Assembly (NCBI GenBank): GCA_002753515.1
Contig: PEAK01000008.1
Location: 1 to 64,000, forward strand
Origin: Magnetococcales bacterium
GTDB lineage: Bacteria; Pseudomonadota; Magnetococcia; Magnetococcales; UBA8363
Direction of reading: 5' to 3'
Length of the DNA stretch: 64,000 nucleotides
The notes under the pieces are model-generated. The model was not told where the DNA came from and did not search any database. It saw nothing but the letters and a program-made list of their open reading frames with translations. A program made the translations under genes and the position numbers. Shown here piece by piece: positions 4,491-16,583 of the stretch. Numbering within the stretch: position 1 is the first letter of the stretch; the number at the start of each line of letters is the position of its first letter.

Positions 4491-6488
4491 TCACCGCCTG
4501 GAGAAGCGATTGTTGTAACCATGAAATCCACCGATCCCCTGTCGCGTTGTAACCTTGAATCCTTTGATTTCCATAATTTCCTCCGGGAGTTCCCGTAAAA
4601 ATCGCGATGGCCTTGTTGGCTCGTTGCGATTGTACATGTATCGGAACTTCGCATGGGACAGATACAATTTTTCTTTGGCGCGGGTCATTCCCACATAGGT
4701 CAGTCGTCGCTCTTCTTCCAATCCCGTCTCATCGTTATCTTGAATGGCCAGTTTGTGGGGTAAAAGACCCTCTTCCATCCCCACCAGAAAAACCAGGGGA
4801 AATTCCAATCCTTTGGCGGCATGCAAGGTGGAAAGGACGACCTGTTCCGTAGCGGCTCTCGCTTCGTCCTGGGGGTCGCCATCCAGTATGACACGCTCAA
4901 AAAAACCGGTCAGATCGGTCTCTTGTTGGAGAAAGGCATGGAGTTCCAACAAGTTTTCAATTTTTTCCTCACCACGGTCCGCAATGGATAAGGTGTCCCG
5001 ATAACCACTCTCCGTCATGAGATGGTCCAACACTTCTCCAGGGGATACGCCGGCATCCAATTCGGCTGCCGCTTTTTCGATCAGGGCGAGAAACTGTGCC
5101 AAGGGTGCAGTGGTCGCCTTTCCCAGGAGGTTTTCCGCCACCACCCGTTTGGCCCCATGGAAAAGGCTGGTGTTGTCCGCCAGGGCTACGGATTGCATCG
5201 TGGCCAATGCTTTGTCACCCAATTTGCGCTTCGGGGTATTGATGATACGTTCAAAGGCCAAATCGTCGGACAAGGAGTGCGCCAGGCGCAGGTAAGCCAG
5301 GGCATCCTTGATTTCGGCCCTTTCCATGAAGCGAAAGCCACCCATCATTTGGTAAGGGATATTTTGCCGGTTCAGAGCTTCTTCCAGCACGCGGGTTTGA
5401 TGGGCTGCCCGAACCAGGATGGCGGCTTGATGCGGGCCGCTCCTGGAGGCCAGGGCACGCTTGATTTCATTGGCGACGAACCAGGCTTCATCGTTTCCAT
5501 CTTCGGCGGCGTAACGCACGATTTTCGGACCATCGGGACCATCGGTCCACAATGTTTTCCCCATGCGTCCCATATTATGATCAATAAGGTGACTGGCAGC
5601 CTTGAGGATATTGCCGGTGGAGCGATAATTTTGTTCCAAACGGATGATGCGGGTATTGGGAAAATCTTTTTCAAAGTTGAGGATATTGTCCAAACGGGCA
5701 CCGCGCCAGCTATAGATGGATTGGTCATCATCGCCCACCACGCACAAATTGCCATGATGACTGGCCAGTGCTTGCATCCATTCGTATTGCACCTTGTTGG
5801 TATCCTGATATTCGTCTACCAGGATGTGGCGAAAGCCCCTGCGGTAACGATCGAGGGTTTCGGGATACTGGCGCCATAGTTTCAGGCAATGAACCAAAAG
5901 ATCGCCAAAATCCATGCAATTGGTTTTGCGCAGTTCTGCTTGATAGCGTGTGAATAGCGTGGAAATCTTGTGCCAATCCTGGGGATGACGGAAATGTTCC
6001 TCAGTGATGTCTTCGGGTCCCAGCCCCCCATCTTTCCAGCGGGAGATGGTGGTGATCAGGCGTTTCGGCGTCCAATACGTATGGGCGAATTGTTGTTCTT
6101 CGGCCAGTTTACGGATCATGCGTTCCTGGTCGGCGGCATCCAGTATTAGAAAATTATTGGTAAAGCCAATTTGATCGGCATTCTGGCGCAACATGCGGGC
6201 ACTCATGCCATGAAAGGTTCCGATCCATAAGCGTCTGGTTGCCCCGGGGTCCAGGTGAACCCATTCCGCGATCCGCTCACGCATTTCCCTGGCAGCTTTG
6301 TTGGTAAAGGTGACGGCTAATATTTCGTACGGGGAAAGTCCTTGTTCCGTCATGAGCCAGGCAAGGCGTCGGGTCAATACCCGTGTTTTACCCGAGCCGG
6401 CTCCCGCCAGGATCATGACGGGGCCATCTCCAGCGGTAACAGCCTCTTTTTGCGGGGGATTGAGCTGATCAAGCAGATGGGTGGTCAT
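4491..6488 (-). CDS. UvrD/Rep/PcrA family ATP-dependent DNA helicase
   Basis: LNPPQKEAV, AGAGSGKTRVLTRR Walker A, VDEYQDTN, GDDDQSIYSWRGA, STLHAAKGLEFP, RLTYVGMTRA motifs. Confidence 0.94.
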   Translation of the reverse strand: MTTHLLDQLNPPQKEAVTAGDGPVMILAGAGSGKTRVLTRRLAWLMTEQGLSPYEILAVTFTNKAAREMRERIAEWVHLDPGATRRLWIGTFHGMSARMLRQNADQIGFTNNFLILDAADQERMIRKLAEEQQFAHTYWTPKRLITTISRWKDGGLGPEDITEEHFRHPQDWHKISTLFTRYQAELRKTNCMDFGDLLVHCLKLWRQYPETLDRYRRGFRHILVDEYQDTNKVQYEWMQALASHHGNLCVVGDDDQSIYSWRGARLDNILNFEKDFPNTRIIRLEQNYRSTGNILKAASHLIDHNMGRMGKTLWTDGPDGPKIVRYAAEDGNDEAWFVANEIKRALASRSGPHQAAILVRAAHQTRVLEEALNRQNIPYQMMGGFRFMERAEIKDALAYLRLAHSLSDDLAFERIINTPKRKLGDKALATMQSVALADNTSLFHGAKRVVAENLLGKATTAPLAQFLALIEKAAAELDAGVSPGEVLDHLMTESGYRDTLSIADRGEEKIENLLELHAFLQQETDLTGFFERVILDGDPQDEARAATEQVVLSTLHAAKGLEFPLVFLVGMEEGLLPHKLAIQDNDETGLEEERRLTYVGMTRAKEKLYLSHAKFRYMYNRNEPTRPSRFLRELPEEIMEIKGFKVTTRQGIGGFHGYNNRFSRR

Positions 6489-12710: not shown

Positions 12711-13283
12711 TTAGTGCAATTTCCAACCGCTGGTGTGCGGGGGACCGCTGGTGATAGCCCCATGACTTGTGGATGGTGTCAGTTGCAGCTTTAAATCCCA
12801 ATCGGTATGGGGGACGGAATCCTGAATAAGTTTGCACAGGGCGTGCAACAAGGTTGGATCCAGGGCCAACTCAATGCCCGGACCCGTTTCGGGGTACAGG
12901 GCGAAGATGACAACGTCTGGTTGTACGGGGGTTACCTGGGCCTTGGCGACTAGAATGGGTTCTGGCCCCAAAGGGGTGGTCTGAACCTGATTTTCAAACT
13001 GGGTACTGAAATCGGCTTGGGAAACGGCGGATTCATGCATCATTTCCATGACTGCCGCACGGGCCTGGGGGCTGTGTGTAGCTTCCGGGCGCACTTGTTG
13101 GGCCACATTTTGAGTCAAGACAGGCCACAATCTTTTTATGAAGCGCCGCGATAACCAGAAACGAAACTCCTGTCGATCCAGGGTGTTGATACGCAGCATC
13201 ATCCGGTCGGCAACCTGGGAATAAACGATTTGCATCTGGTGAAGGCGTTGTGGGGTCGTCATGGCGTCCTCGAGAAACAGCAC
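12711..13283 (-). CDS. Hypothetical protein
   Basis: 190 aa ORF between confident genes; no recognised family. Confidence 0.5.
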   Translation of the reverse strand: MLFLEDAMTTPQRLHQMQIVYSQVADRMMLRINTLDRQEFRFWLSRRFIKRLWPVLTQNVAQQVRPEATHSPQARAAVMEMMHESAVSQADFSTQFENQVQTTPLGPEPILVAKAQVTPVQPDVVIFALYPETGPGIELALDPTLLHALCKLIQDSVPHTDWDLKLQLTPSTSHGAITSGPPHTSGWKLH

Positions 13284-13397
13284 TCTATTGACTTGGCGTT
13301 ACTGGCACTGGATATAGTCATATCAGAAGTACCGCGTGACGACAATTGAGAGAGATGATCACTGCGACCTCGATGTGGTTATGGAAGGAGCTGGTAG

Positions 13398-14591
13398 ATG
13401 ACGGATGAAGAATTGAAAACATTGTTGGATGATCTGGAATCAGACCGGGTTGAACGCAAGGAATCAGGAAAGGGTGTGGAGAAAATCTGTCAGGCCATAT
13501 GCGCTTTTGCCAACGACATGTCTGATTATCGATTGCCAGGAGTGGTATTCATAGGTGTCAAGGATAACGGAACTTTGGCAAATTTGGAGATCACGGATCA
13601 ACTGTTACAGAACCTGTCGGCACTGCGTTCGGACGGCAATATTGTCCCCCTTCCGGCCATGACGGTACAAAAGCGGAAGATACAAGGGGTGGATTTGGCG
13701 GTAATCATCGTGCAACCAAGCGATAGCCCGCCGGTCAGGTTTAAAGGGACGATATGGATTCGTGTGGGGCCGCGTCGAGCTTTTGCCAATGTGGATGAAG
13801 AACGCCGTTTGTCGGAAAAAAGACGCTATAAAGACTTACCCCAGGATATACGTCCCATCCATTCGGCACCTATGGAAGGATTGGACGAATATTTATTTCT
13901 CCGTAAATACCTCCCAACGGCCGTTTCTGCCCATATTTTGGATCAAAATCATCGCAGTGTTGAAGAGCAATTGATCGCGACCAAGCTTGCTCATCCTGGT
14001 CCACCTGTTTGTCCCACGGTCCTTGGCGAGTTGACAGTTGGAAAAGACCCGACTTATTGGATTCCCGGGGCCTTTGTCCAATTGATCAGGATTGACGGGT
14101 ATGAACTGGGAGATCCAGTCCAGTCCTCTCAGGAGCTACGATCGGCGATGCCGGACCTGCTTCGAGAAATAGACCAATTATTAAAGATTAACATCCATGC
14201 TTCCGTTGATATGACAACGGGTTCCACAGAACGCAGACAACCGGATTATCCCCTTGTGGCTTTGCAACAAATTGTTCGCAATGCCATATTACATCGATCT
14301 TACGAACACTCAAATGCCCCGGTGCGGATCTATTGGTTCAAGGATCGTGTGGAAATTTTTAATCCTGGTGGTCCCTACGGGCAGGTGAACAAACAAAATT
14401 TTGGACAACCCGGTGCGTATAGTTATCGCAATCCGAATTTAGCTACCGTACTTAAAGATCTTGGGTATGTTCAGCAGTTTGGCATGGGTATCAGTCTGGC
14501 CAGGAAAGAGATGGGGGCGAATGGTAATCCATTGCCAGAATTTCAGGTCGAAGATACTCACTTGGCAGTCATCATGAGGAAACGTCCATGA
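13398..14591 (+). CDS. AlbA_2 (Schlafen-like) domain ATP-binding protein with C-terminal HATPase_c_4-like region
   Basis: ERKESGKGVEKICQAICAFAND...VVFIGVKDNG...IWIRVGPRRAFANVDEERRLSEKRR (AlbA_2); QQIVRNAILHRSYEHSNAPVRIYWFKDRVEIFNPGG (GHKL-like). Confidence 0.85.
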   Translation: MTDEELKTLLDDLESDRVERKESGKGVEKICQAICAFANDMSDYRLPGVVFIGVKDNGTLANLEITDQLLQNLSALRSDGNIVPLPAMTVQKRKIQGVDLAVIIVQPSDSPPVRFKGTIWIRVGPRRAFANVDEERRLSEKRRYKDLPQDIRPIHSAPMEGLDEYLFLRKYLPTAVSAHILDQNHRSVEEQLIATKLAHPGPPVCPTVLGELTVGKDPTYWIPGAFVQLIRIDGYELGDPVQSSQELRSAMPDLLREIDQLLKINIHASVDMTTGSTERRQPDYPLVALQQIVRNAILHRSYEHSNAPVRIYWFKDRVEIFNPGGPYGQVNKQNFGQPGAYSYRNPNLATVLKDLGYVQQFGMGISLARKEMGANGNPLPEFQVEDTHLAVIMRKRP

Positions 14592-15592
14592 GTGTCCCCG
14601 TCATCGCGTTTTTTAACAACAAGGGCGGAGTAGGTAAGACATCTTTGGTCTATCATATTGCGTGGATGATGTCGGAATTGGGTTTGCGCGTTTTGGCAGC
14701 GGATCTGGATCCCCAGTGCAACCTGACGACAGCCTTTTTGGAAGAAGAGCAACTGGAATCCTTGTGGTTGGAAGACAAACGTGAAGCCTCCATTTTTGGT
14801 GCTATTCGCCCCATAAAGGAGGGTGAAGGCGATGTTGTCAGACCCATGCTTTGGAGAATCAAGGAGCGTCTGCACCTGATTCCGGGAGATATGGAATTGT
14901 CCCGATTTGAGGATGACTTATCGGAAACTTGGCCCAAATGTCTTGAGGGAGATGGGCGAGCCTTCCGGGTGACTTCGGCGTTTTGGCGGGTATTACAACT
15001 TGGGACAAAAGAGTGTGGGGCGGATGTTGTATTGGTAGATCTGGGGCCCAATCTTGGTGCCATAAACCGGTCTGCCATCATTGCTTCGGACTATCTGGTT
15101 ATTCCCCTGGGGCCTGACCTTTATTCATTGCAGGGTTTGCATAACCTTGGACCAACCTTAAATGATTGGCGTGTGGCTTGGGAAAAGCGGTTAAAAGAAA
15201 ATAAAAATAAGAAACTGATCCTTCCACCCGGACATATGAAACCCCTTGGTTATATCGTCATGCAGCATTCGGAGCGTTTGAATCGTCCGGTCAAGTCATA
15301 CGATAAATGGGTAGAACGTATGCCGGGAAGTTATAGAAAATTTATTTTGGGCCAAGCCTCTGCGGAGGACGTTGAAGTTTCCAAGGATCCGCATTGTTTT
15401 GTACTTCTCAAACATTATCGAAGCCTGATGCCCATGGCCCAGGAAGCACGCAAACCCATTTTTCATCTGAAACCTGCCGATGGTGCCATGGGTTCGCATA
15501 TGTATGCGGTTCACAGTGCTTACCAGGATTTTGAAAAACTGTCGCACGAGATTGCCAAACGCGCTGGGATTTTCATTTCATACCCTGACTGA
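14588..15592 (+). CDS. ParA-family AAA ATPase
   Basis: FFNNKGGVGKTSLVYHIAWMM deviant Walker A, LAADLDPQCNLT, VLVDLGPNLGAINRSAI; ATGA overlap with the upstream gene. Confidence 0.9.
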   Translation: MSVPVIAFFNNKGGVGKTSLVYHIAWMMSELGLRVLAADLDPQCNLTTAFLEEEQLESLWLEDKREASIFGAIRPIKEGEGDVVRPMLWRIKERLHLIPGDMELSRFEDDLSETWPKCLEGDGRAFRVTSAFWRVLQLGTKECGADVVLVDLGPNLGAINRSAIIASDYLVIPLGPDLYSLQGLHNLGPTLNDWRVAWEKRLKENKNKKLILPPGHMKPLGYIVMQHSERLNRPVKSYDKWVERMPGSYRKFILGQASAEDVEVSKDPHCFVLLKHYRSLMPMAQEARKPIFHLKPADGAMGSHMYAVHSAYQDFEKLSHEIAKRAGIFISYPD

Positions 15593-15623
15593 TATTCCCC
15601 GTGGACCAAGACTTAAGGATAGT

Positions 15624-16583
15624 TCAGGCTACCAACGTGCCGGAACACGAGGAACCACGCCCGGCGGTACAGGCAAAGCAATGATCGTCGATGACGATGG
15701 GGCGTTTGCTCAAGATGGCCGGGTCAAGACCCGTGATGTGGGGCGGGACTGGCAGTTGGACGGGTCTTCGCAGTGCCAAATTAAAATCACAATCGAACAG
15801 GGTTCCATCCCAAGCGATGCTGACTTGGTTCAAGCACATCAGACCATGCAACGTATCCGGGTTGAAGGATTCCAACAAGAGTTGTCGATAGGATGCTTCC
15901 TGGCTGTGACGGGACAGATGGGCACGAAATCGACCAACCGGCATGTTGGTGATGGCCAGCAGTCGGGAAAACACGATTCCGTAACGTTCTTTCAATTCCC
16001 TTCGGTAGTCGGCTTCCAGCCGGCAGGGATCGGGGGGGAGTTGTGGTCCCATGGGATTGTAAACCAGGTTGAGTAGCAAATCGGGATCGTGGCCATATCC
16101 CAGGTCATTGAATCGTTGCAGGGTGGCGATAGCCTTTTGAAAGGTACCGGAACCCCGTTGTTGATCGACATTGCTTTCCAGGTAACAGGGGAGGGAGGCT
16201 GCCAAGACCACGCGACGGTCACGAAAGAACGAGGCCATGTTTTCCAGCCCCGGCTCCTGATGGACCGACAGGTTGGTGCGCACCTGGATGGGAATTTTTT
16301 TCGTGTGCAGGGCAGCGATGAAATCGTTGAGGTGGGGATTGAATTCCGGGGCTCCCCCGGTGATATCAACGAGCTTGCAGCGGCTTTGTTCCGCCAGACG
16401 CAGGACTTCCTGCATGACAGGCCAAGTCATGAGTTCGGTGCGTTTTGGCGAAGCTGCGACATGGCAATGTTGACAACTTAAATTACATCGCAATCCCACA
16501 TTGACCTGAATGGTCTCCAGGTGTCCCCGGGTGAGTTCATTCCGACCGGTGAAACGATGCAGGGTGTCTTTAAAAATGGTCAT
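15624..16583 (-). CDS. arsS: Radical SAM protein of the ArsS type (arsenosugar/selenosugar biosynthesis-like)
   Basis: VGLRCNLSCQHCHV CX3CX2C motif, DITGGAPEFNPH, C-terminal CFACTAGRGSSCSGTLV. Confidence 0.82.
   Translation of the reverse strand: MTIFKDTLHRFTGRNELTRGHLETIQVNVGLRCNLSCQHCHVAASPKRTELMTWPVMQEVLRLAEQSRCKLVDITGGAPEFNPHLNDFIAALHTKKIPIQVRTNLSVHQEPGLENMASFFRDRRVVLAASLPCYLESNVDQQRGSGTFQKAIATLQRFNDLGYGHDPDLLLNLVYNPMGPQLPPDPCRLEADYRRELKERYGIVFSRLLAITNMPVGRFRAHLSRHSQEASYRQLLLESFNPDTLHGLMCLNQVSIAWDGTLFDCDFNLALRRPVQLPVPPHITGLDPAILSKRPIVIDDHCFACTAGRGSSCSGTLVA

Follow-up and report, generated by a model that had tools for sequence, protein, structure and literature searches.

We show that two overlapping genes in a 64,000-nucleotide stretch of a Magnetococcales bacterium contig (PEAK01000008.1; hereafter the window) form a conserved, co-diverging and horizontally mobile unit, in which a protein with a Schlafen (AlbA_2) domain and conserved motifs is coupled to an ATPase from a ParA clade that has exchanged its effector partners. 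The pair is probably a self-contained toxin-type defence module, either an abortive-infection or a toxin–antitoxin system, in which a putative RNase would be governed by a ParA-type antitoxin or sensor, would respond to a trigger and would protect against phage. A defence or nucleic-acid-sensing role had been proposed in the initial annotation and is favoured by mobility, patchy distribution, the known defence loci to which a minority of copies are linked and, most of all, a ParA clade whose other partners are SIR2, RelA/SpoT and HEPN proteins; against this, most copies lie outside defence islands and the concept is already partly known.

The initial annotation described reading frames of 397 and 334 aa joined by an ATGA overlap, and the window sequence bears out both frames, their positions and the overlap. 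The first gene (13398..14591, plus strand) encodes the predicted RNase effector (hereafter AlbA), whose SLFN_AlbA_2 domain (13437..13775, plus strand; residues 14-126; Pfam, 8e-15) scores 55.8 bits with PF04326 against a curated cut-off of 25.3. A GHKL-type ATPase domain (HATPase_c_4; 14316..14576, plus strand; residues 307-393; Pfam, 3e-19), with N295, G362 and G364 invariant among homologues, forms the end of this protein, and a C-terminal wHTH is absent from it by both Pfam and the structural model. The start/stop overlap (14588..14591, plus strand), which predicts translational coupling and is kept in homologues, leads into the second gene (14588..15592, plus strand), whose 334-aa product is a ParA-like SIMIBI ATPase of an effector-linked clade and the predicted antitoxin or sensor. 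This ATPase has AAA_31/CbiA matches in Pfam, a deviant Walker A motif, KGGVGKT (14621..14641, plus strand), and a C-terminal signature, SLMPMAQEARKPIF (15422..15463, plus strand), that is common to SIR2-linked ParAs and looser in HEPN-linked ParAs. Neither protein had a Pfam match to HEPN, the RNase domain marked by Rx4-6H.

The reading of AlbA as an RNase effector derives from three conserved acidic residues, their SLFN13-like spacing and structural matches. Among 65 AlbA sequences, E14, E19 and D56 are conserved in 98%, 100% and 91%, respectively, D56 being missing in six, while K21 is replaced by T in 16/65. The spacing of this triad (5 and 37) agrees within one residue with that of SLFN13 (5 and 38), in which tRNA cleavage requires E205, E210 and D248 (PMC5862951); E14, E19 and D56 appear to correspond to these residues, as judged by motif and fold rather than by residue-level superposition. 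An AlphaFold2 model of AlbA (pLDDT 90) had as its best Foldseek match DIP2311 of Corynebacterium diphtheriae (3lmm), followed by SLFN11/12/13/14 and the SAMD9 tRNase domain, with multi-domain TM-scores that are low because single domains alone align. The ParA model (pLDDT 94) was closest to DIP2308 of the same species (3pg5) and then to Soj/ParA proteins; the locus-tag numbers of DIP2308 and DIP2311 are close. The ParA catalytic residues D39, D41 and D151 are invariant across 81 sequences.

Association of the two genes extends far beyond the window. Using the ParA as query against contigs of GTDB genomes, we kept 80 loci of 118 relatives, spanning Planctomycetota, Cyanobacteria, Chloroflexota, Proteobacteria, Acidobacteria, Actinobacteria, other phyla and methanogenic archaea. 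An AlbA gene lies directly upstream of ParA in 73 of these 80 loci (one being a 36-aa remnant), and the exact 4-nt overlap was found at 60 of 67 measurable junctions (52 ATGA, 8 GTGA). Sampling from the AlbA side, within the order and the phylum, gave the same ParA beside AlbA at every locus examined; co-occurrence of homologues of both proteins was seen from either direction. The two proteins also co-diverge in their pairwise identities (Mantel r 0.81, 0/2000 permutations). The association is more than chance, and the pair is obligate and coupled. Solitary ParAs occur in some Acidimicrobiia and phages, and there are distant AlbA_2-GHKL proteins without ParA, one of which (L220) has a C-terminal wHTH instead, suggesting that ParA may take the place of the wHTH in paired Schlafen-GHKL proteins.

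The pair is horizontally mobile. Comparison with six congeners (G002-G007) reveals a clean insertion of ~2.35 kb, since in each of these the radical-SAM gene adjoins orf12711 with a gap of ~13 nt. The entire inserted segment (13263..15623, boundaries +/- ~15 nt) consists of the two genes, preceded by ~110 nt and followed by ~30 nt, in antisense orientation relative to the genes of the host. Flanking minus-strand genes had been noted previously, and their strand is correct, although they belong to a single minus-strand row of genes, which the pair splits in two. One congener, G002, is empty at the window site and has its own pair at a different site, while the window genome has no second AlbA and the examined stretch matching the pair site of G002 holds no pair. 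The empty sites and the different site in G002 indicate that the moved unit was these two genes alone. Around the insert we found no transposase, convincing terminal repeats or target duplication, and no sigma-70-type promoter or clear terminator. Distribution of the pair is patchy across 80 relatives, with presence in 15 genomes and broken copies in G003, G006, G008 and G011. The radical SAM gene beside the insert (15624-16583) scores above the cut-off of TIGR04167, the model for ArsS (arsenosugar biosynthesis).

The strongest argument for ParA as a constant switch of toxic effectors comes from its relatives. Full-length ParA relatives without ParB, on plasmids and in phages, are coupled to other enzymes, mostly via short overlaps, or are in some cases solitary. 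The partner is a SIR2 protein on plasmids of Salmonella, Vibrio, Spirosoma, Neorhizobium, Photobacterium and Burkholderia and on 20 viral contigs, a RelA/SpoT-like synthetase on 18 viral contigs, and a HEPN RNase in Burkholderia glumae, phage Pf1 and one viral contig. When the ParA tree is rooted on the ParB-linked sequences, every effector class falls on a clade of its own (SLFN, 24/24, support 0.78; SIR2, 26 plus 2 unlabelled, 1.0; RelA, 18 plus 4 unlabelled, 1.0; HEPN, 3, 0.99); the SLFN and RelA subclades are sisters (0.99) and the ParB-linked ParAs fall outside. There is, then, an effector-swapping ParA clade distinct from partition ParAs, which accounts for the occurrence of a ParA in the window without a ParB partner. 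We see an even chance that this one non-partition clade provides the invariant switch for a widespread defence or toxin–antitoxin class, with Schlafen RNases, SIR2 NADases, RelA/SpoT alarmone synthetases and HEPN RNases as interchangeable effectors, and that the window holds the Schlafen form, with ParA in the role that the wHTH has in Schlafen-GHKL proteins that stand alone. If so, there would be a reason for the ParB-less ParA-like ATPases of many bacteria, plasmids and phages (filamentous Pf1, P22-like), a Schlafen-type nuclease, the domain of the animal antiviral proteins SLFN11/13, would be under a ParA switch, and a small two-gene unit would be available for studying how a ParA ATPase might gate a toxic enzyme and which signal it reads.

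Several ParA-linked loci were noted alongside. RelA/SpoT-domain partners of ~220 aa occur on the viral contigs L158, L162, L164, L165, L169-L174, L178, L180, L182, L184, L185, L189, L190 and L194; none of four such loci tested had a PADLOC match, and the ParA + RelA/SpoT unit is a possible undescribed toxSAS-type system. In filamentous phage Pf1 the ParA-HEPN pair occupies L136:3489-5040, with a HEPN gene (4513-5040) that is unannotated in the record. The genome of the window also carries another ParA of this type, now decayed (L003, G000:C38:40992-44177, at 343-1690), whose frame is broken after ~50 aa; the 381-aa ORF directly 5' of it matches TPD weakly, may encode a PD-(D/E)XK-type nuclease and could be another effector form. 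In Symploca (L017:6350-8305), a protein with a caspase domain and pentapeptide repeats, weakly similar to the middle/GHKL part of AlbA, is encoded near a ParA whose AlbA is a remnant.

The mechanism we propose is that AlbA, a Schlafen nuclease domain on a GHKL ATPase module, would cut RNA, with tRNA or rRNA as predicted targets by likeness to SLFN11/13 and SAMD9, and that the dedicated ParA-type ATPase, as antitoxin or activating sensor, would hold or trigger it. The effector would be kept inactive by ParA in the resting cell, and a change in the ATP or DNA-bound state of ParA would lead to its release and to translation arrest; the trigger would most plausibly be phage or other foreign DNA, or loss of ParA. 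Decay of the pair has some bearing on this scheme. Walker A damage in ParA is commoner when AlbA is lost or broken (4/9 vs 5/67, p = 0.009, in a comparison that leaves out Acidimicrobiia; p = 0.034 with the Acidimicrobiia solos), and in G006 an AlbA with an internal deletion accompanies a ParA whose Walker A reads KGGVGTT. Intact AlbA with a broken ParA frame was seen at no locus, although numbers are small; this is the expectation if ParA restrains AlbA, yet five ParAs with an altered Walker A have an AlbA partner of intact length.

Genomic context gives a mixed picture, and raises the alternative that the pair serves DNA repair or restriction systems as an accessory and has no autonomous function. 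Most of the 80 kept loci lie among housekeeping or unrelated genes, whereas a minority of pairs sit within Hma/BREX-like or type III R-M loci, in part as tight operons that would suit an accessory. HmaB/DUF1156 lies directly downstream with a 4-nt overlap at L013 and L016 (the latter also with HmaC/DUF499), a DUF1156 fragment and an SNF2-type helicase are near the pair at L053, PglZ at L024 and viral L145, a NERD-kinase at L043, MTases with ResIII at L069 and an MTase with AAA_15 at L066. DUF1156 was found within 10 kb of three pairs against 0.20 expected (P ~0.001, two of the three cases being known before the test), and PglZ alone showed no clear enrichment near pairs. We rejected a place in defence islands as the usual situation of the pair, since the majority of copies are solitary among unrelated genes. 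L053 also has a second, wHTH-type Schlafen-GHKL protein directly 3' of ParA, from ~5448. A repair accessory might likewise be read from uvrA, which lies upstream of the pair in 13 cyanobacterial loci (L015, L019-L021, L023, with ParA only, L025, L026, L031, L032, L056, L077, L080 and L083; at ~50 nt or less in several Nostocales) and one gammaproteobacterial locus, but the cyanobacterial linkage probably goes back to a single inherited site. The window copy came in by itself: it has neither uvrA nor the BREX/Hma core genes (PglZ, DUF499, DUF1156/HmaB, HmaC) beside it, and the same is true of most other copies. We consider an accessory role improbable.

Somewhat less improbable, although still unlikely, is a two-protein regulator, in which AlbA would bind nucleic acid and control transcription or RNA processing while the ATP-dependent DNA binding of ParA replaced the wHTH. 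Annotations as transcription regulators or as RecG-related are widespread among AlbA_2-GHKL relatives, which counts against the effector reading, and DNA-binding annotation is frequent for AlbA_2 proteins. A regulator would also fit the distribution of the C-terminal wHTH, which is found in the stand-alone relative and in many BREX-linked ones (PMC12839542) and is missing from the ParA-paired proteins. The nuclease triad is kept, however, the flanks vary with no conserved target genes, and the other partners of this ParA clade (SIR2, RelA/SpoT and HEPN) are enzymes and not regulators. Descent from a plasmid or chromosome partition system would explain the ParA fold and motifs, but the partner conserved beside this ParA is Schlafen-like, and the absence of a nearby ParB reported in the initial annotation extends to the whole draft genome, in which a family search for ParB_N (PF02195) was empty. 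With the position of ParB-linked ParAs in the tree, this led us to reject a partition role, and a relic of such a system is very improbable.

A mobile toxin-type defence module is the reading we prefer, and its relation to described systems is one of partial overlap. The initial annotation could not name the pair as a characterised system, which agrees with our searches: PADLOC has no such system, none of its systems matched both genes strongly over their full length, and the literature that we searched held no description of a Schlafen-ParA system, of SIR2-ParA with HEPN or of ParA with toxSAS, nor was a four-effector ParA clade described in the literature searched. PADLOC matches to pAgo/SIR2-APAZ systems were set aside as shared Schlafen/GHKL domains, given that SIR2-Schlafen fusions are reported near pAgos, and Argonaute kinship was not adopted. 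The concept is nevertheless partly known, because a dyad of a HEPN protein (MAE_18760 family) and a ParA/Soj-like ATPase was predicted to be a toxin–antitoxin system in 2013 (Anantharaman et al. 2013, PMC3710099), and bacterial Schlafens are reported to be anti-phage in the preprint of Taboada et al. 2025, as summarized where PMC12839542 cites it.

Like ParABS, the window pair has a ParA with the corresponding fold and motifs, but it is without ParB and its ParA belongs to a distinct clade. With the tRNase domains of the animal antiviral RNases SLFN11/13 and SAMD9 it shares the domain fold and the spacing of the acidic triad, whereas AlbA is bacterial, sits on a GHKL module and is linked to ParA. 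COG2865-type AlbA_2-GHKL-wHTH regulators differ from AlbA in their C-terminal wHTH. The anti-phage bacterial Schlafens and the BREX-linked Schlafen-minimal histidine kinase-wHTH RNases (PMC12839542) have the same AlbA_2 nuclease domain and GHKL module, but the window pair lacks the wHTH and has an obligate separate ParA, and pairs of this kind lie mostly outside BREX loci. Closest in organization is the HEPN-ParA dyad, also a coupled two-gene unit that joins a predicted RNase to a ParA/Soj-type ATPase, with HEPN-linked ParAs in the same broader ParA group of the tree; the window pair differs in having a Schlafen/AlbA_2-GHKL effector, an effector gene that comes first and a separate ParA subclade.
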